Positions 3,100 through 22,444 of a stretch of DNA of 22,444 bases are shown here, piece by piece. Position numbers and translations under genes: made by a program. The stretch spans positions 1 to 22,444 of the IMG/VR virus record IMGVR_UViG_3300037502_002811. The stretch is one strand, 5' to 3'. The first letter of the stretch is position 1. Every line of letters begins with the position of its first letter. The notes beneath the pieces were generated by a model. The model was not told the origin of the DNA, searched no databases, and was given only the letters and a program-made list of their open reading frames with translations. The stretch is from a virus.

Positions 3100-6000
3100 G
3101 TGGCAGACTTTATCCAGCAGTATCGCGAGACTTTCCCGGAATTTCGCAAGTCCACAGACACTGAGATAATCGACACGCTTTACGACCGGTTCGGTGGCCC
3201 CGACTCCGGTGTGGATAAAGCGGACTTTGCTTTGAGCATGAAGGGCCGTGGTCCACGGATCTCTCCCCTTCGTGCAGGCATTGAAGGCCTAAAAGGCGCA
3301 GCCGAGACAGCCATTGCTCGCGGCGCTCAAGCTGTTGGCGCAGAAGAAACTGCGCAAGAATATCTCCGCAGCGCAGAAGAGCGCGGCGAAGATGTCGCGG
3401 CTCGCTATCAGCCTGTCACCCGCAGCTTTGAAGACGTTAACGATCCCTACACGTTCTATCGCTACATGCTTGAGCGTGGTGGCGAGTCGGCACCGCAGAT
3501 GGCCGCGATGCTTGGCGGTGGCGTCCTCGGTCTCGGTGCGCGTGGCGCCCTTGGTCTTGCAGGTCTTGCCGCCGCTCGTGGCATCCCCGCTTCCGCAGCA
3601 GCTGCGGCAGGCTCAACAGCGGTGGGGACTGGCGCATACACAGGCTACAACATCCAGCGTCAGATGGAGGAAGGCACTCCGTTTGAGGAGACCTCCTTGG
3701 GTGCTGCAGGTGCCGCGGCCCTTGGCCAGTCAGCGCTTGATACACTTTCTCTTGCAACGATCCTTCGCGGATTCCCCGGCCTGTCTCTTGGTCAAGCGGG
3801 TAGCCGTGTTGCAGCAACAGCCCGTCGCGCTGTTGAAGCGGGCGCTACAGAAGCGCTGACGGAAACAGGGCAGCAGGCGCTTGAGATTCTGCAGGCTGAT
3901 CCGGAGAAGCTGTTTAGCTTTAGCCCCGAAGTTCAAGAAGAGTTGAAGCAGGCGGCTATTGCTGGCGGCTTGTTGGGCGGTGCGCTTGGTGGTGTTGGTG
4001 GTGCAATCACATATCGCCGTCCGCCAGCTGCGGCGCCGGAAACGGAAACCGAAGGCGGCACTGAGACTGGCACAGAAGGTGGTCAGACCTCGACCACCGG
4101 CACGGACATTGATACGCAAGCCGCTGGAACGGATATCGATACGCAAGCTGCAGGCATTGACACTCAGGCCACTGGCGTTGAGCCGCCTCCGGCACAAGGT
4201 GCCGCCGGTGTGGAACCTCCCCCGGCACAAGGCGCGGCTGTTGAACCCCCGCCTGCTCAAGGTGCGGCGGTCGAGCCTCCCCCTGTCCAAGGCGCGGAGC
4301 CCGGACAGGTCACGGCTGTTGAACCCCCGCCCACGGCCCAAGGACAGCAGCCTCTAGCTCCTGCTCCGAAGATGGCTCCCCCGACACAACCCGAGCCAGT
4401 CCCTGCTCCGAAGGCTCCGTCGGGCATAGAACTCTTTGCATCTCCGTCCCCGCCGTCCCTTCCCAAGAAGCTTCAGCTTGGGAAGTGGAATTACAATTAC
4501 GGTCAGCAGGGCTCGTTTACGCTGAACTTCGGCAGTGACTTGGAAAAGGCGCTGTTTCAAGTTTCTAAGAAAACCACCAAGCCTGCCGACCTTCAGTACC
4601 GGGATTGGCTCAAGGACCAAGGTCTAACCGACAACCAGATCGACACATTGAGTTCTGACTTCCGTCAGCAGCTCACGTCCTTTATCGGCCAGAAGGTGAA
4701 GGCGGGCCAGACCACAGGCACCATAACGGTCCCTCGGTACAACCCTTCGATGGTTGGTCTTGGGGCTACCGCTCCTGTCCCCACCAAAGCCCCGACACCC
4801 GCCTCCCCGGCTCCGACCGGCCCCAGTGTCACCGCCGCGCAGCCGCCCGCCGCCCCGGCCCCACAAGGCCCGGAAGCCGAACCTATGGAGTTTGGGACGG
4901 GCGCTGAGCCCGGTGTCACCCCCGGTCAAACACCCTTCCCGGAACAGGTGTCCCGCCGCAAGACCGTACCTGTAACATTTGGCGCCGGGATAAATGGGTA
5001 TCAGGTTCAGACCCAAGCTCCTGGTCAAGCCACCGCAATTATTACTGTTGCCCGTGAGGATTACGACCGACTGCAAAACATCCTTCCCGGAGCCATCGAC
5101 ATTCTGGGAGAGATCCACGCTCGCATGTTCCCCGGCATGGAGATGAAGCTCAAGGTCCCTGCGGGTGGAGACAGTCGCGGGGGGTCCTTGGTCCTTTCTC
5201 CAAAACAGTTTCTTCTCCAAGTCAATCCGGACGTGTTGGAGGCAGAGTTTGGCACGGGCCCCAATCGCCAGACCAAAATGCTGCACACCTTGTTCCACGA
5301 GTTAATGCACCCTGTGGAAGAAGTGTATTTGGCTAATGCTCCACTGTCAGTGCTTGACGCCATCATCAAGCAGTATGTCCGTCTGCGGAATCCGAGCGCT
5401 GTTAACCGTGCGGCGGTTGTCTACGCTTTGAAGAGAACGCATGTTAAAGCTTCCGACCCCGAATTTGTTAAGGGCCTTCTTTCTTCCTTCGGTTTGAAGG
5501 CGAGAGTTTACGAAGAATACGTAAAGTCCACTTCCAAACAGTATCCCATATCTGTTTACTTGGAAGGACCTTCTTCAAGCACCTCGCTAACCCGAGACTA
5601 CTATCGCAGCTTTACCGAGTGGGTTGCGGAACAGGGCGCTGCTTGGCTGGTCAAGGAAGCGCAAGGCCTTGTTCCAAAGACCACGTTCGAAAAGTTTCAG
5701 AAAGCGATCTTGGATCGTCTGCGCAAGCTGTATCGCGAGATCGCCAAAAGCCTTGGCTTCGCTCCCAGAAAGGGCGCCTTCGAAGCTTTCTTGGAAGAGA
5801 ACTACGGCAAGCGGGCGCAGGTGTCTGCCACGCCGGATGGGTCGATCAAAGACCCACGCATCATTGACTACCCGTTCGATAACCTTGAGTCTGAGGCCCA
5901 AGGCAAGCCAACGATTAGCAAGAAGGCGGTCTCCGCGTACCTTGCTAAGAACAGGCCTCCGAAAACCGACATGGCTGGACGAGCGGGCGCAGGCGAACCC

Positions 6001-8670
6001 CTGATGCGGGAAGAGAGAGCGACCTCCCCGGCCGCTCCTGCCGATGTCGAAGCCGCGCAGAATAAATTGGCTAAGGCTTACACGAAGCCCGAGTCCATGG
6101 GCTTCAAAGGTTTCTTACGCGCCATCAAAGAAGCGTATGATTCCGGCTCGTACAAAAACCTCGGTGATAAACTTACCTACGCGCTCACCGACCGCTTCAT
6201 CTATGTGAAGCGGTTGCAGGAGCGTTACGTTGATTGGCTAAAGAAACAGGGCTTGTCATTGCAAGCAGCGTATGATGGACGCCATCCGATTGCTGCAAAC
6301 CTGTCTGCCTATGCCGCTATCCTCGGGCGCGAGAACGTCCTCGGACAACTTGAAACTCTCATCAAGTATGGCGGCAAGCCTGTCATCCGGATGTTCTCAA
6401 AATCCAATGACCCGCTTGAGAAATCTCTCGACGGCATGCTTGTTATTGACGGCTCCGATGGGAGCGCCGGCCTGACGTTCTTGGCGGACTTAATCCGGGA
6501 AGATACGCTTGATGCCTTCAAATACTACGCGATGGCAAAGCGCGTCCTCGGTAAGTACTCCGACAAGGAAGCTCCCATCACGCAGGAAGAAGCCAAGGCC
6601 ATCGTTGAGCATCACGAAAAAGATCCCGTCGTTATGAAGGCCTACAAGGACTATCAGGCTTTCAACAAGGCGATGATGCAAATGGCCGTGGACGCCGGTG
6701 TGCTGTCACAGGATGTTGCTGACGCTTTCCTTGAGCACAACGACTACTACCCGTTCTATCGTGAGATGGATGAGACGGGTCGTTACACAGGGCCTCTGTT
6801 TACAGGTGGCGTCCTTACACGGACCAAGATCCAGAAAGCTGTCGGCGGTTCAGCGCAACTTGAGGCTGACCCCGTCGAAGTGATCATGAAGAACGCACAG
6901 TTCTGGATGCACTCTGCTGCAAAGAACGTCGCTGCGCGTAAGATCTTCACGATGATGGAAAGTCTCGGCGACGCGACGCCAATTAAGAAGGGTGCGAAGC
7001 TTCCGCCTGATCAGACGGAAGCTGTTGTTCGCATCAACGGTCGCGAGCAATACTACGCCCTGAAAGATCCCGTCATGGCAGCTGCGCTTGAAACCACAGG
7101 CGCACAGCAGCTCCCCAACTGGACACGGATTCCGGCGAAGTTCACGCAGTTCTATCGCGAACTTGTCACGCGTTCTCCGGACTTCATCTTGAAGAACGTG
7201 TTCCGTGATCCAATGGGTGCGTATGTCACAAGCGGTGTGGACTTCAACCCGTTCGCTCCGATTAGGGGCTTTGTGAATGGGATCGTTGATCCGCAGAAAA
7301 TTCCTGAGATGCTGGCGCTGCAAAACTGGGGCATCAAAGGTGGCTTCCGTGCAATCCCCGGCGTCGAGGATGCGACTCAGCTCTTGAACGAAAACTTCAA
7401 GCCGACATCGAACGGTATCTACGTTGTCCCGAACGGCAACGTGCTGACCGGTATTATCGCTAAGGCTTGGAACAAGCTTGGCGAAATATCGGAAGCGTCT
7501 GACGCCGCGACCCGTATGGAGATCTATAAGCAGGTCTTGGCTAAGACAGGAAACGAAGCGGAAGCGGCGTTCCGTGCGCAGGAGGTTATCAACTTCCGCA
7601 AGCAAGGCGCGAGCTCTATCGTTCGCTACATGTCGATCATGGTTCCGTTCATCAACGGTCGCCTGCAAGGCATGGACGTCACGGCTCGTGCGTTCGGACC
7701 TAAGGCTTTTGCAAACACCATGATAAAGGGCGGCTATCTGTTCGCCGCCTCCATGGCGATGCAGGCGTTGTTCGGAGACGATGAAGAGTACAAGCAGCTG
7801 CCGGACTATGTGCGATACAGCACGATGCCGGTTCCTCTCAAGCTGCTCGGCCTCGGTGACAGCGGCTTCGTCGCGATTCCAAAGCCTTTCGAAATCGGGT
7901 TCGTGTTCCAAACATTCCCTGAAGTTCTCGCTCAGGCGATGATGGGTAACATTGAGAACCGCGACATCGGCAAGGCCGCTTTGGAGCAGCTCAAATCAAC
8001 CTTCGGTCTGGCCCTGTTCCCACAGATCATCGCGCCGATTGCGGAGCTGATCGTCAACCGCTCGACGCTAACAGGTCTGCCGATTGTTACAGAGGCGCAG
8101 AAGAATCTTCCGCCGGAGTTGCAGTACACTGCTGCAACATCCGACATCGTGAAGAATCTGGCGGGCTCCGCGGGTCTGTCCCCGGTGCAGGTCGAGGCTT
8201 TGATCAAGGGCTATGGCGGTCAGATCGTGACCAGCCTTCTCGGTCTGGTTGACGGCATGTATCGCACCGCATCCGGTGTGGGCGTGGAGAAGGATTGGAC
8301 GCAGTATCCAACAGTCTCGACCTTCCTCAAGACGCAGGCCAACACAAATCCCAAAGGGGTTGCGGACATCTACCGTCTGTCGGCTGAGATCCAAGGCGTG
8401 ACTACAGCGATCAACACCTACGTCGCACAGGGTCAAGCCGACAAAGCCGCCAACCTGATGAAGGAAAACGAAGGGCTGCTCACGATCAAGCAATCTGTCT
8501 CGGCTCTGCGCACTCAGCTCAACACCCTGAGCCGCAATGAGCGGATGCTCGTTAATAATCCGAACATCCCCCAAGATCAGAAGAACGCACAGCTTGATCA
8601 GATCAAGGAAGCCCGCCGTCAGATTGGCCGGGTGATGACCGAAAGCCTGATCGACAAGACTGGCAAGTGA
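3100..8670 (+). CDS. Giant polyvalent phage protein with metallopeptidase motif (1856 aa)
   Basis: A GTG start is supported by GGGGAG at 3088-3093. Parts in order: a conserved-looking N-terminus (MADFIQQYRETFPEF); a long Gly/Ala-rich hydrophobic region (about residues 128-305) that could interact with membranes; a Thr/Pro-rich repeat linker (about 310-460); a second Pro-rich linker (about 550-615); and a zincin-type motif HELMH at 733-737 with FTEWVAEQ at 838-845 as a possible source of the third ligand. A long helical region follows. A C-terminal block beginning at about 1348 (RELVTRSPDFILKNVFRD) resembles the LPD38-type domain of polyvalent proteins, and the end is coiled coil. Polyvalent proteins combine many domains and are thought to enter the host with phage DNA. 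The peptidase and LPD38 assignments rest on motif recognition only. Confidence 0.88.
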   Translation: MADFIQQYRETFPEFRKSTDTEIIDTLYDRFGGPDSGVDKADFALSMKGRGPRISPLRAGIEGLKGAAETAIARGAQAVGAEETAQEYLRSAEERGEDVAARYQPVTRSFEDVNDPYTFYRYMLERGGESAPQMAAMLGGGVLGLGARGALGLAGLAAARGIPASAAAAAGSTAVGTGAYTGYNIQRQMEEGTPFEETSLGAAGAAALGQSALDTLSLATILRGFPGLSLGQAGSRVAATARRAVEAGATEALTETGQQALEILQADPEKLFSFSPEVQEELKQAAIAGGLLGGALGGVGGAITYRRPPAAAPETETEGGTETGTEGGQTSTTGTDIDTQAAGTDIDTQAAGIDTQATGVEPPPAQGAAGVEPPPAQGAAVEPPPAQGAAVEPPPVQGAEPGQVTAVEPPPTAQGQQPLAPAPKMAPPTQPEPVPAPKAPSGIELFASPSPPSLPKKLQLGKWNYNYGQQGSFTLNFGSDLEKALFQVSKKTTKPADLQYRDWLKDQGLTDNQIDTLSSDFRQQLTSFIGQKVKAGQTTGTITVPRYNPSMVGLGATAPVPTKAPTPASPAPTGPSVTAAQPPAAPAPQGPEAEPMEFGTGAEPGVTPGQTPFPEQVSRRKTVPVTFGAGINGYQVQTQAPGQATAIITVAREDYDRLQNILPGAIDILGEIHARMFPGMEMKLKVPAGGDSRGGSLVLSPKQFLLQVNPDVLEAEFGTGPNRQTKMLHTLFHELMHPVEEVYLANAPLSVLDAIIKQYVRLRNPSAVNRAAVVYALKRTHVKASDPEFVKGLLSSFGLKARVYEEYVKSTSKQYPISVYLEGPSSSTSLTRDYYRSFTEWVAEQGAAWLVKEAQGLVPKTTFEKFQKAILDRLRKLYREIAKSLGFAPRKGAFEAFLEENYGKRAQVSATPDGSIKDPRIIDYPFDNLESEAQGKPTISKKAVSAYLAKNRPPKTDMAGRAGAGEPLMREERATSPAAPADVEAAQNKLAKAYTKPESMGFKGFLRAIKEAYDSGSYKNLGDKLTYALTDRFIYVKRLQERYVDWLKKQGLSLQAAYDGRHPIAANLSAYAAILGRENVLGQLETLIKYGGKPVIRMFSKSNDPLEKSLDGMLVIDGSDGSAGLTFLADLIREDTLDAFKYYAMAKRVLGKYSDKEAPITQEEAKAIVEHHEKDPVVMKAYKDYQAFNKAMMQMAVDAGVLSQDVADAFLEHNDYYPFYREMDETGRYTGPLFTGGVLTRTKIQKAVGGSAQLEADPVEVIMKNAQFWMHSAAKNVAARKIFTMMESLGDATPIKKGAKLPPDQTEAVVRINGREQYYALKDPVMAAALETTGAQQLPNWTRIPAKFTQFYRELVTRSPDFILKNVFRDPMGAYVTSGVDFNPFAPIRGFVNGIVDPQKIPEMLALQNWGIKGGFRAIPGVEDATQLLNENFKPTSNGIYVVPNGNVLTGIIAKAWNKLGEISEASDAATRMEIYKQVLAKTGNEAEAAFRAQEVINFRKQGASSIVRYMSIMVPFINGRLQGMDVTARAFGPKAFANTMIKGGYLFAASMAMQALFGDDEEYKQLPDYVRYSTMPVPLKLLGLGDSGFVAIPKPFEIGFVFQTFPEVLAQAMMGNIENRDIGKAALEQLKSTFGLALFPQIIAPIAELIVNRSTLTGLPIVTEAQKNLPPELQYTAATSDIVKNLAGSAGLSPVQVEALIKGYGGQIVTSLLGLVDGMYRTASGVGVEKDWTQYPTVSTFLKTQANTNPKGVADIYRLSAEIQGVTTAINTYVAQGQADKAANLMKENEGLLTIKQSVSALRTQLNTLSRNERMLVNNPNIPQDQKNAQLDQIKEARRQIGRVMTESLIDKTGK
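4099..4347 (+). repeat. GTDIDTQAAG and VEPPPAQGA coding repeats in the giant gene
   Basis: Tandem in-frame repeats encode two GTDIDTQAAG units and a shorter GIDTQATG (4099-4176). They are followed by five VEPPP-containing units, the first four as VEPPP(A/V)QGA (4177-4347, from residue 360). They form an extended, probably disordered linker between the hydrophobic N-terminal part and the metallopeptidase-like part. Codon use varies between copies, so the repeat is more strongly conserved as protein than as DNA. Confidence 0.85.
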
Positions 8671-10125
8671 TCAGATAAGCCATTCCTTATAACCTTCCGC
8701 GAGAACTTCAGACGCAATGTTGATCTTCTCGCGGAGGGCCTTGAGGATCTTCTCGTCTACCGTTCCCTCAGTAACGATGTCGATATAGGTCACGGCCTTC
8801 TTCTGACCTATGCGGTGAGCGCGGTCCTCTGACTGGAGCCTTACCTCCAGATCATAGTTGTTCGAGAAATAAATCATGGTCGAAGCTTCGGTGAGCGTGA
8901 GCCCGTAGCCCCCGGTCCGTGGTTGGCCGACGAAGAACCGCAGCGGGTGATCAGGGTTCTGGAAATCGATCACCATCTTCTGGCGATCATCGGCACTCGT
9001 CGCCCCGTAATAGACGCGCACTGATTCGGCGCCATACTCCTTGGCCAACCGATCACGGATCATCTCCAGATCGTAGGTGTAGTTGGCCCAGATGATGACC
9101 TTGCCGTCCACTTCCTCCAGCACATCCATCAGCTCATCGAACTTATTGCTGTGCATGTTGATGATCGTGCCGTCATCGGCCTTGAAATAGCCTGAGCAAA
9201 TCTGCTGCAAACGGAGGATCTGGGTCAGCACATTCTGCGCAGTCAGCAGCTTGCCATCCAATTCTGCAATAGCTTGTTTTTTGATACGCCCGTAGAGCAG
9301 AGCTTGTTCGTTTGTCAGCTCGACCGTGCGTTTGACGTAGATCTTTTCTGGCAAATCCAAGCAGTCTTTCTTCAGGATGCGGAACGAGAACTTGTCCAGC
9401 TTGTCTGTCAGCTCAGACAGATTCTGATACCCGACCACTTGGTTGAACGAGTGCGACCCGACGCTGCGCTTTTGCAAGCGGCAGTAACGTGCTTGAAATG
9501 AGTAGAACGAGTTAAAGCCGAGCAGCCGTGGATCAAGGAACGAGCACTGGCTGTAAAGATCCATCGGGCTTTTGGTAATGGGCGAGCCTGTCATGATTCG
9601 CTTGTATTTCGCAATCATGCCGGCGCGTGTGCAGTTCTTTGTGCGTTTGGCCTGACCATTTTTGATCGTTGTACTTTCGTCTATGGCCATGAGCGCAGCA
9701 TGCTTGCGCAGGAAATCCATCGCATAGTCCGTTCCCTTCTGCGTCGAGAACGCCTCGATGTTCATGATCAAGACTTTAAACTTGCCGTCCTTCTCAAGCC
9801 CGCGCTTCAGCTCAGCCGCTTGCTTTTTAGTATTGTTCGGAGACCAGACCACAACATCTAGTGGTACGTGGTCAGGGAGATGCTTTGGGAGCTCAGTGAT
9901 CTGCCAGTTTTTGTACACACCCTTTGGTGCGACAACGATGGCTGCTTCGATTTCGTTCGCGTCCCACAAGAATGCGAGCGTGTCGATCAGGATTTTTGAT
10001 TTGCCTGTGCCCATCTCAGCAAAGAGCGCGAAGTCCCGGCTCTTCCAGGAACGTGCAAGGGCGTCCTTCTGGTGCTGATAAGGCTTGAATTTAAAAGGAT
10101 ATGCGTCGTAGCTGATCGTTGACAT
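8671..10125 (-). CDS. SNF2-type superfamily 2 helicase (484 aa)
   Basis: Motifs in order: YQHQKDAL near residue 17, motif I EMGTGKSK (37-44), motif II DEST (149-152), motif III MTGSP (178-182), motif V GGYGLTLTEA and motif VI QSEDRAHRIGQ (431-441). The HRIGQ end is diagnostic of SNF2-like ATPases, which translocate on double-stranded DNA. I chose the ATG at 10125 (MSTISYDAYP) because AAGGGG lies about 7 nt upstream; a longer frame to 10266 would run through the promoter region and the next gene. It is the only minus-strand gene between two + blocks, and its stop directly abuts the stop of the giant gene. SNF2-like helicases are common in phage replication regions, where they may help replication or recombination; its role here is not visible. 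Confidence 0.93.
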   Translation of the reverse strand: MSTISYDAYPFKFKPYQHQKDALARSWKSRDFALFAEMGTGKSKILIDTLAFLWDANEIEAAIVVAPKGVYKNWQITELPKHLPDHVPLDVVVWSPNNTKKQAAELKRGLEKDGKFKVLIMNIEAFSTQKGTDYAMDFLRKHAALMAIDESTTIKNGQAKRTKNCTRAGMIAKYKRIMTGSPITKSPMDLYSQCSFLDPRLLGFNSFYSFQARYCRLQKRSVGSHSFNQVVGYQNLSELTDKLDKFSFRILKKDCLDLPEKIYVKRTVELTNEQALLYGRIKKQAIAELDGKLLTAQNVLTQILRLQQICSGYFKADDGTIINMHSNKFDELMDVLEEVDGKVIIWANYTYDLEMIRDRLAKEYGAESVRVYYGATSADDRQKMVIDFQNPDHPLRFFVGQPRTGGYGLTLTEASTMIYFSNNYDLEVRLQSEDRAHRIGQKKAVTYIDIVTEGTVDEKILKALREKINIASEVLAEGYKEWLI

Positions 10126-10245
10126 GGGGTGCCCCTTTCTACTGGCGTGATTATAAGAATAGTCAACTCGAAAAAAATTGCAAGACCCCCGCTTGACGAA
10201 CCGCGGCCCATGGTCCACCTTATGTGTCCCAACGGAGAGAAAGCC
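10126..10245. promoter_or_regulatory. Divergent intergenic region with candidate promoters
   Basis: This 120-nt gap separates the SNF2 gene (leftward) from the replication operon (rightward) and should hold both promoters. On the minus strand there is a perfect TATAAT (complement of 10150-10155) about 25 nt before the ATG, with no good -35 at 17 nt, and a TTGACT only 5 nt upstream of it. On the + strand CTTGACG (10192-10198) resembles an alphaproteobacterial -35, but the -10 is poor (cttatg at 10219-10224). A 7-A run lies at 10171-10177. The assignments are tentative. Confidence 0.45.
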
Positions 10246-10581
10246 GTGACTGTTTACATCACACAAGAAGTTAGAGGACGTGATCTTTCAGAGGCTTTGG
10301 TCTTTGGGGATCTGGAAATCCTTGTTCCTGCCGACATGCAAACATCGGAGGAGAGTGACCTCGTTGCTCTCAGCGATCTTGTCGCCGACAGGCTTGAGGG
10401 TTTCAATAGCGAAGACTACCTGCTGCTGGCCGGGGACCCGGTCTGCATCGGGCTCGCCTGTATGTGGGCAGCTGAATATAACGGTGGTTATGTGCAGATG
10501 CTGAAGTGGGACCGGTTGGAAGAGCGGTATCTTTCAATCACTGTGGACATGTGGAACGAAGAAAGGGATTCCCATGATTGA
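10246..10581 (+). CDS. Conserved phage protein of unknown function (111 aa)
   Basis: GTG at 10246 is preferred because GGAGAG sits at 10234-10239 with good spacing. In-frame ATGs at 10210 and 10222 lack such a site and would begin inside the promoter region. The protein starts MTVYITQEV. It carries LLLAGDPVCIG near residues 63-73 and MLKWDRLEERY near residue 85, features I recognise from a family of small phage proteins of unknown function that often sit at the start of replication operons. It has no membrane segment or catalytic motif. It is the first gene of the operon and overlaps the next by 8 nt. Confidence 0.85.
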   Translation: MTVYITQEVRGRDLSEALVFGDLEILVPADMQTSEESDLVALSDLVADRLEGFNSEDYLLLAGDPVCIGLACMWAAEYNGGYVQMLKWDRLEERYLSITVDMWNEERDSHD

Positions 10582-18403: not shown

Positions 18404-18919
18404 TCAAGACGGTCGTGGGGATTTGCGCGGCGGCATGGGACTGAACACAATCTGGTAGTGATGGGGGCACCAGCTTGTCGATCCTTTAACAGGCGCTCCG
18501 CACATTAAAGGATTCGGGTCTTTCCTTTCACTGCTGACGATATACCGGCATTCGAACCTGCCGATATTGGACATCCGCACAGGCTTCGTTTCCGGCGCCG
18601 GCACGGGGGGCTTGATAACCTCCGCAACAACCTCCGGCGGTAGCGTCTTGGTAGACCGACCAGAAGCAGAGAGGCCATCCTTGCGGGCTTTCTGCTTGGC
18701 CTCCCGCCTTTCCTTGTTCACCTTCACCCGTGACAGGTGAAGGGCCTTGAGCTCTTCCGGTATCATCTTGGTATACCCTCCAAACTGGCGAAAGGCGAAG
18801 CCCAGAATGGAGTTCCGGCTTCTGTTGAGCTGCCTCGCCGCTTGGGATGCAGGCACCCCGCTCTTGGCCAGCTCTATCAGGACGGCTCTTTCTTCCTCCG
18901 TCCAATGCATCTCAGACAT
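18404..18919 (-). CDS. GcrA-like cell-cycle regulator (171 aa)
   Basis: The N-terminus MSEMHWTEEERAVLIELAKS followed by VPASQAARQLNRSRNSILGF is the helix-turn-helix region of GcrA proteins. The C-terminus has the matching block: a CRYIV start, then MCGAPV, then SWCPHH (about residues 124-153), which in GcrA forms the sigma-70-interacting region. GcrA is an alphaproteobacterial cofactor of RNA polymerase that activates promoters carrying methylated GANTC. A phage copy would be expected to redirect host transcription or tune the host cell cycle. The middle is a Lys/Arg and Pro-rich linker (about 65-115). I see no GANTC in the two main intergenic regions of this window, so the targets are probably elsewhere. 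Confidence 0.88.
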   Translation of the reverse strand: MSEMHWTEEERAVLIELAKSGVPASQAARQLNRSRNSILGFAFRQFGGYTKMIPEELKALHLSRVKVNKERREAKQKARKDGLSASGRSTKTLPPEVVAEVIKPPVPAPETKPVRMSNIGRFECRYIVSSERKDPNPLMCGAPVKGSTSWCPHHYQIVFSPMPPRKSPRPS

Positions 18920-21174: not shown

Positions 21175-21555
21175 TCAGCAATAGGGCTTCTGCCTCAATT
21201 TGGTCCGGATGCCGACAGGTTCGACAGAGGCGAACGCGCCATCAGAAAACCTCCGACAGTCCAATGCGCCCCCTTGAGCCACGACCTGGCGGTTGATGTT
21301 GGTGGTCCCTGTGAAGCAGTAACCTACCACCCGGCCGTGCTTATCGCGGGCCATGTTCTCGCACTTCACAGGTTTGCCGGACACGATGGAGGTTAAGATG
21401 TCCTTGGCCCTTGGACCATTAGGCTCTGACATCTCTTCGGCATCGACACCCCACAGGCGGATGGTTTCCCTGCCGATCTTGATCGTGTCTCCATCGACCA
21501 CGGTGGGCACACCGCAGAGCCATGCGGAGAACAGGAACATTGAGACGCAGTTCAT
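21175..21555 (-). CDS. SNase-like (thermonuclease) protein with N-terminal hydrophobic segment (126 aa)
   Basis: The body is a staphylococcal-nuclease-like domain: VVDGDTIKIG (Ca-binding region), IRLWGVDAEE (catalytic Arg and Glu equivalents of R35 and E43) and DKHGRVVGYC (Arg equivalent of R87), ending with VAQGGALDCR. It should cleave DNA and RNA with calcium. ATG 21555 is chosen because it is ATGA-coupled to the preceding membrane mini-protein. This gives a short hydrophobic start (MFLFSAWLCG at residues 6-15) that could be a minimal export signal or anchor. It has several Cys, consistent with export. Likely roles are degradation of host or competing DNA, or cell-exit functions; context does not decide. 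Confidence 0.9.
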   Translation of the reverse strand: MNCVSMFLFSAWLCGVPTVVDGDTIKIGRETIRLWGVDAEEMSEPNGPRAKDILTSIVSGKPVKCENMARDKHGRVVGYCFTGTTNINRQVVAQGGALDCRRFSDGAFASVEPVGIRTKLRQKPYC

Positions 21556-21701
21556 TCCTTCCCCCACCCGAGCGCGTCTAGGCGTAGGATGATCGACAGG
21601 ATGGCAGAGAACAGCCAATCAGACATTTCCGCGCCAAGAAAGTATTGGATGATTGCGGTGATTGATAACGCGAACGCACAGAACCAGATAATCGCTGTCA
21701 T
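21552..21701 (-). CDS. Membrane mini-protein (49 aa, two hydrophobic helices)
   Basis: Both ends are ATGA overlaps (with 21698-21982 and with the nuclease), so it fits the operon exactly. The protein has two hydrophobic stretches, MTAIIWFCAFALSITAIIQY and LFSAILSIILRL (about 30-41), separated by GAEMSD, and ends LDALGWGKE, a tail shared with neighbouring genes. Two short helices and a position just before a nuclease are compatible with a holin-like or membrane-anchoring protein, but no family is recognised. Confidence 0.68.
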   Translation of the reverse strand: MTAIIWFCAFALSITAIIQYFLGAEMSDWLFSAILSIILRLDALGWGKE

Positions 21702-21982
21702 TCCTTGTCCTCCCCAAGCGCGTCTATGGCGATCTTTTGCATGTCGTATTGAGCAATTCGCTCAAGCGTCTGCCTTTGATCGTCTGGATTTTTACTCAGT
21801 GCGGTTTGCGCCCATGATTGAAAATCGCATTGAGCTACCTGCCGCAGCGCCTCACGCAGCCGCTCTATTTCGGCTTGCTTTGCGTTGAACATGGCAACGA
21901 CACCTTCAAAAATGCCATGCTCTTTAAGCTGCCGCATCATTACGGCCTCATATCGTTCTTGCATTTCCACGGGATCAAGCAT
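21698..21982 (-). CDS. Coiled-coil array protein, copy 3 (94 aa)
   Basis: ATG 21982 (MLDPVEMQERYEAVMM) has a GGGGAGGGGG ribosome site embedded in the previous gene's last codons. Mid-protein QAEIERLREALRQVAQ is encoded by DNA nearly identical to that in the two upstream genes. It ends AIDALGEDKE, a variant of the shared tail. The rest (CDFQSWAQTALSKNPDD) is unique. Probably a small oligomeric helical protein; function unknown. Confidence 0.78.
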   Translation of the reverse strand: MLDPVEMQERYEAVMMRQLKEHGIFEGVVAMFNAKQAEIERLREALRQVAQCDFQSWAQTALSKNPDDQRQTLERIAQYDMQKIAIDALGEDKE

Positions 21983-22238
21983 CTTCCCCCTCCCCAAGCG
22001 CGGCGCGGGCCATGCGGAAATAGTCCGCGTGTCTATCAAAGGGCATCGTTGATTGCTGTTCAGCCCTTTTCTGTATTTCAAGAAGCGCCTCACGCAGCCG
22101 CTCTATCTCGTCGGCGGCTTTAAGCGCAACTTTTGTGTCGCATTTGCATATTCCCCCGCGACACGCCATTCTTTCATCATCATCTGCATCACAGGATATT
22201 TGATTTTTTCTGCGAAGCTGTTCAACAATGTCGCTCAT
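21975..22238 (-). CDS. Coiled-coil array protein, copy 2 (87 aa)
   Basis: ATG 22238 is preceded by GGGGAGGGGAAGG from the end of the upstream gene. The protein starts MSDIVEQLRRKNQI. It has a short Cys-containing insert (CRGGICKCD, about 25-33), then ADEIERLREALLEIQKRAEQ and ends ARAALGEGEDA. The MSDIVEQLR and AADEIERLR pattern is common in small phage proteins of unknown function. The Cys insert could bind metal. Confidence 0.8.
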   Translation of the reverse strand: MSDIVEQLRRKNQISCDADDDERMACRGGICKCDTKVALKAADEIERLREALLEIQKRAEQQSTMPFDRHADYFRMARAALGEGEDA

Positions 22239-22444
22239 TCCTTCCCCTCCCCAAGCGCGGCGCGGGCGGTATATAGCTCTGCAATTTCCGTTGCAACATC
22301 ACGACACTCACAATTAGCCTCGAAATACCCACCCGTTTTGCGGCAACAAAGTGAGTTGCAAAGTCCCGTCAGAATATGGGCAATGTCGCCAATTAGCTTA
22401 TTATCGGGACGCAGAGCCTCACGCAGCCGCTCTATTTCGTCGGC
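22235..22444 (-). CDS. Partial coiled-coil array protein, copy 1 (C-terminal 69 aa)
   Basis: The frame is open at the right edge of the window and stops with TGA at 22237-22235, overlapping the next start as ATGA. The visible part begins ADEIERLREALRPD, has a Cys-rich middle (LCNSLCCRKTGG and later NCECRD) and ends ARAALGEGKE. The first and last blocks match the downstream genes, while the middle differs, suggesting shuffling between copies. Confidence 0.75.
   Translation of the reverse strand, partial: ADEIERLREALRPDNKLIGDIAHILTGLCNSLCCRKTGGYFEANCECRDVATEIAELYTARAALGEGKE

Follow-up and report, generated by a model that had tools for sequence, protein, structure and literature searches.

Arrays of promoterless small genes held together by a recurring joint are known from the gene cassettes of integrons, and in phages the PeSL is a unit made up of a promoter and a stem-loop. 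The PeSLs of T4-like phages are presented as mobile regulatory cassettes (Arbiol 2010; Comeau 2014) in the relevant passage of PMC4503421, with accessory genes shuffled between phages by means of a short conserved sequence at the gene borders. For the lambdoid phages, part of PMC2327257 describes flanking conserved sequences (Clark 2001), through which modules are exchanged by homologous recombination at short conserved flanks, and a passage of PMC8022706 covers the gene chain of the lambda nin region (Kroger and Hobom 1982), with its packed small genes and ATGA overlaps. Finally, the SAS of cluster K mycobacteriophages is a 13-bp sequence, GGGATAGGAGCCC, that lies near gene starts, over the ribosome-binding site of many unrelated small genes (PMC3203893).

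The locus described here is of a known type, that of linker or PeSL shuffling in phages, and its new features are joints that are themselves coding and the exchange of half-genes. It was found in the window, by which is meant the whole stretch of DNA analysed, a single IMG/VR virus record of 22,444 bp, and it is built around two short elements whose sequences are unrelated to each other. The first, J, is about 33 nt long (consensus GCCCGCGCCGCGCTTGGGGAGGGGAAGGAATGA) and combines in one piece of DNA the C-terminal codons of one gene, a Shine-Dalgarno sequence and an overlapping stop and start. The second, M, is about 30 nt long (GACGAAATAGAGCGGCTGCGTGAGGC, read as DEIERLREA) and lies inside genes, three of them in the window. 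RNA-parameter folding of five segments over J and M gave z-scores of -0.84 to 1.15, no better than shuffles, and a scan at J found no sigma-70-like promoter and no terminator, results that led us to reject a regulatory RNA or terminator at J.

How, then, does this array relate to its nearest counterparts? Like a PeSL, J is a short conserved sequence at gene borders, and the exchanged modules are flanked by short conserved DNA (J and M) as in other short-linker modular exchange; it differs from the PeSL, as far as the passage cited portrays it, in being coding and in the lack of a detectable sigma-70-like promoter, terminator or fold, while the array has a second joint inside genes and is carried by lineages that share little of their core. 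With the lambdoid flanks and the nin chain, in the parts of the two accounts referred to, it shares tightly packed small genes, ATGA overlaps and module exchange at short flanks, but here many joints, in one array as well as in different lineages, use one near-identical 33-nt J, and the exchange of half-genes takes place at a distinct coding element, M. The likeness to SAS lies in a short repeat over the ribosome-binding sites of unrelated small genes, whereas J is 33 nt rather than 13 bp, has a different consensus, is not confined to one mycobacteriophage cluster, codes for the C-terminus of the preceding gene and is tied to shuffling across lineages. The resemblance to integron cassettes, promoterless small genes with a recurring joint, stops at the joint, which has no attC-like fold and is coding on both sides, and no integron integrase was identified.

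Within the window, four minus-strand copies of GCGCTTGGGGAGGGGAAGGA lie between 21556 and 22258, where dinucleotide shuffles give an expectation of 0: at 21556-21575 with three mismatches, at 21702-21721 and 21982-22001 with two each, and at 22239-22258 with none. The preliminary description of this DNA had reported variants of an ALGxGKE tail on four consecutive genes, encoded by the same DNA that serves as Shine-Dalgarno sequence and start of the next gene, and both statements hold. The four consecutive minus-strand genes have the C-termini ALGEGKE, ALGEGEDA, ALGEDKE and ALGWGKE; three of the joints have an ATGA overlap of 4 nt and the other an overlap of 8 nt (21975-21982), and in the 22239 copy GGAGG sits inside the coding tail with a spacer of 7 nt to the ATG. 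The 21556 copy (GGGTGGGGGAAGGA) has a weaker Shine-Dalgarno sequence because GGAGG is missing there. The repeat is thus real, but the 24-28 nt first allotted to the junction fall short of J, as DNA conservation reaches further upstream than GCGCTTGGGGAGGGGAAGGA, into GCCCGCGCC, which encodes the peptide ARA.

The array, all of it on the minus strand, includes a cassette gene truncated by the contig end, whose 3' part (22235..22444) consists of M1 (22409..22444, ADEIERLREAL, at the extreme contig end), a C-half starting RPDNKLIGDIAH and J1 (22235..22267), an exact copy of the consensus with the tail ARAALGEGKE, GGAGG and an ATGA overlap. Next to it lies a gene of 87 aa (21975..22238) composed of an N-half (MSDIVEQL...), M2 (22084..22118, ADEIERLREAL), a C-half and J2 (21975..22010, tail ARAALGEGEDA), with the next ATG at 21982 in the 8-nt overlap. 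A gene of 94 aa (21698..21982, MLDPVEMQ...) carries M3 (21842..21874, AEIERLREAL), a C-half and J3 (21698..21730, tail DALGEDKE, ATGA overlap). The last cassette gene (21552..21701, 49 aa) is without M and encodes a small hydrophobic protein, apparently a membrane protein; its J4 (21552..21584, tail DALGWGKE), the most diverged copy, runs by an ATGA overlap into an SNase-domain gene (21175..21555), where the array ends. An SNase-type gene also follows immediately after J in L003, L012 and L021. A Pfam search with the cassette proteins gave no convincing family, and for one of them a structure predicted without an alignment (mean pLDDT 63.8) has as its sole feature a long helix over M, which suggests that M may form a helical joint in the protein. 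In L004, at about 3759, a copy of J lacks the stop codon and two cassettes are fused in one reading frame. The window itself ends inside M, and the ends of several other contigs are no more than about 150 nt from J or M; it may be variation among arrays that interrupts assembly.

Beyond the window, the exact 24-mer GCGCTTGGGGAGGGGAAGGAATGA occurs in 20 other viral contigs, and when other phage DNA was searched for the junction, as had been suggested at the outset, a looser pattern for the junction types found J in 50 IMG/VR viral contigs besides the window. The same pattern found J in 0 of 84,980 bacterial and archaeal genomes, and among 50,697 named phages J and M had weak partial matches at chance level, none of them convincing. 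Exact M has no match in the 84,980 genomes either; its 26 loci lie in 25 distinct viral contigs, one of which contributes two, and J is found in 22 of these contigs as well. In the other three, the distance from M to an end of the examined stretch is at most about 160 nt. Both elements are conserved as DNA and not as peptide alone. A search for ARAALGEGKE in all synonymous spellings (Arg as CGN, stop as TGA) returned 17 contigs, of which the exact-J set already contained 16. The codons of J in the collected arrays are nearly invariant (Gly GGG, Glu GAG and Arg CGC each 52/52, Leu CTT 50/52), a constancy that is partly ascertainment, because it was through J DNA that the loci were collected; M played no part in finding them, and yet 29 of its 33 copies spell Ile with ATA, a rare codon that makes up 5% of Ile codons in six window genes. 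Codon counts and synonymous search together rule out selection on the peptide alone. The tail of J comes in two dialects, GGG-AAG and AAA-GAG (loci L002-L073), which do not track backbone lineage and are mixed in 5 of the 23 contigs with at least two typed copies, against 16 expected from shuffling.

A single phage lineage for all carriers is ruled out by a comparison of core proteins across 41 contigs, which revealed several backbone lineages with few or no core proteins in common; the grouping that follows is our reading of the core-protein table and is approximate for small contigs. Lineage A comprises the window, G002, G007, G010, G018 and G025; lineage B G016, G014, G017, G021, G036 and possibly G033; lineage C G020, G015, G040, G011 and G028; lineage D G005, G022, G031, G009, G013 and others; lineage E G029, G003 and G024; and lineage H G019, G034, G035 and G008, the rest being single contigs. 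Lineages C and D are related at about 45%, and A and D share at most two proteins at about 32% (G007 and G005). The DNA polymerase of the window has counterparts at 88% amino acid identity in three other records among the 41 searched. In four large carriers the portal is of phrog_1216 and the replication modules differ, with no T4 hallmark among the matches listed. As for recombination functions, lineage B encodes an Erf-like annealase, an exonuclease and a RusA resolvase, lineage D (G005) an ExoVIII-like exonuclease and an integrase, and lineage C (G020) an integrase; lineage A has HNH endonuclease matches and no annealase among the best 25 of its 60 matched PHROG families, and no integrase was seen among the annotated window genes. 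The window phage is a tailed phage whose host is probably alphaproteobacterial, since a GcrA-like regulator is encoded at 18404-18919, and the hosts probably lie outside the sequenced species, since lineages C and D have integrases yet J and M are absent from the genomes searched. The window also encodes a 1856-aa protein with an LPD38 domain (3100-8670) and, on the opposite strand amid plus-strand genes, an SNF2-type helicase (8671-10266).

Across these lineages, modules that are 98-100% identical recur with different neighbours, and 18 module clusters were found in at least two lineages. A 140-nt half-cassette, with M at one end and J at the other, is found at 99-100% identity in lineages A, B, C, D and E and at 88-90% in additional copies from A and B. 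Ten of its copies were clustered, and they adjoin six partner clusters on the left and eight on the right. When exact 24-nt flanks are counted, the left flank of this half-cassette is followed, through J, by five different right-hand genes, so that gene order changes while the junction stays, as the preliminary description had envisaged; three of the five joints are replicated in two or three independent metagenomes. A 508-nt block in L006 (lineage D) and L021 (lineage A) is 99.8% identical, with J at both ends. Positions 22235-22444 of the window (210 nt) are 99% identical to L015 of lineage D, where another gene comes next, and cassettes related to the 49-aa one lie among other neighbours in L006, L015 and L021. 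The sample consists of metagenomic contigs, and some joints were seen once.

The ends of the exchanged blocks are concentrated at the two elements. Among homologous blocks (at least 85% identity over at least 70 nt), J holds 104 of the 277 unique ends and M 73, compared with 25 and 17 from their shares of the bases. When recent cross-lineage blocks are taken (at least 93%, at least 80 nt), there are 93 distinct ends, 45 in J, 33 in M and 15 elsewhere. Random offsets of up to 400 nt lead to expectations of 14.9, 12.6 and 65.6, and in 1000 trials they never placed more than 29 ends in J or 23 in M. The 15 ends outside J and M are mostly at other gene starts or diverged M-like sites, but one of them is truly mid-gene: in L071, at about 3446, a module breaks off away from J and M and with a change of frame, which reflects either a real deletion or an assembly error.

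Could the pattern be that of ordinary mosaicism, in which random illegitimate recombination is followed by selection that keeps breaks at gene borders, with J carried along because it serves well as a ribosome site? Ends would gather at J under selection for intact genes too, and for this reason the J result alone is weaker than that for M; that some blocks end outside both elements would fit as well. Whole-gene selection cannot, however, account for intragenic ends, and the excess at M is therefore the strongest part of the end-point evidence. Random breakage also sits poorly with synonymous sites in J and M, rare codon of M included, that are conserved across lineages of little core homology. 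Ordinary mosaicism is on balance an unlikely source of the array. A dedicated site-specific recombinase or guided nuclease that recognises J and M and moves cassettes in an integron- or homing-like manner would agree with their fixed orientation and very strong DNA conservation, and with the integrases of C and D and the endonuclease matches of A. Such an enzyme would, though, have to act on two elements of unrelated sequence and unremarkable folding, at either of which a block may end, sometimes at diverged joints, and none was found common to the lineages, all of which makes it very unlikely.

Many cassette genes have one layout, MSDIVERLR...EIERLREAL...ARAALGE, as would be expected if tandem duplication and divergence of one small-gene family in each lineage had left the tails as inherited paralogy. 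The identical tail is also found on unrelated cassettes (hydrophobic, cysteine-rich and other small proteins), and near-identical modules are shared between lineages; duplication is contradicted as the sole explanation, in which role it is highly improbable, and may contribute inside arrays. Chimeric assembly, with unrelated fragments joined at 30-nt repeats, is scarcely credible even though several contigs, the window among them, end within the array or M, as 17 of 76 J joints recur exactly in at least two independent metagenomes, including three right-hand partners of one left flank.

The reading that we regard as quite probable is that co-infecting phages shuffle whole genes and half-genes by recombining over the short homology of J and M. 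The locus would then represent the end of a cassette array in which each small gene is linked to the next through J and many cassettes carry, mid-gene, an M that codes for a predicted helix. During co-infection, or when a phage meets a prophage, strand annealing or homologous recombination would pair J with J and M with M; exchange from J to J would move whole genes, and from J to M or M to J half-genes, with reading frame and translational coupling kept through the swaps. Rad52-like phage annealases, which carry out relaxed homologous recombination, are the proposed engine, although PMC3945230 treats homology in general and not an array of reusable joints. The minimal pairing lengths given there, 23-27 bp for Red-beta and 31-34 bp for RecA, are a fit for joints of 30 and 33 nt, and since neither element folds better than shuffles and the scan at J found no sigma-70-like promoter or terminator, homologous pairing is the simplest engine and would drive the exchange in place of a dedicated enzyme. 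Translation is presumably coupled at the joints. The earlier idea that cassettes are inserted or swapped while remaining coupled stands for the swapping, as an evolutionary outcome, whereas enzyme and coupling are what we infer; the second element, half-gene exchange at M and exchange across unrelated backbones go beyond it.

To our knowledge, and on the basis of a non-exhaustive literature search, the exchange of half-genes at a coding joint that is used repeatedly has not been described before. The array makes the joints of phage mosaicism readable base by base and is an unusually clear natural case; whether mosaics originate by illegitimate recombination or by homologous recombination at short flanks is an old question, for which the array offers joints, modules and partners open to counting and testing. 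The benefit would be the diversification of accessory proteins. More tentatively, distinct lineages might keep a common pool of half-genes with J and M as standard sockets, maintained for the in-frame recombination that they permit, and new two-part proteins might continually be assembled, possibly against host defences. Half-gene exchange through a coding joint across unrelated phages suggests a fast route to new accessory proteins.
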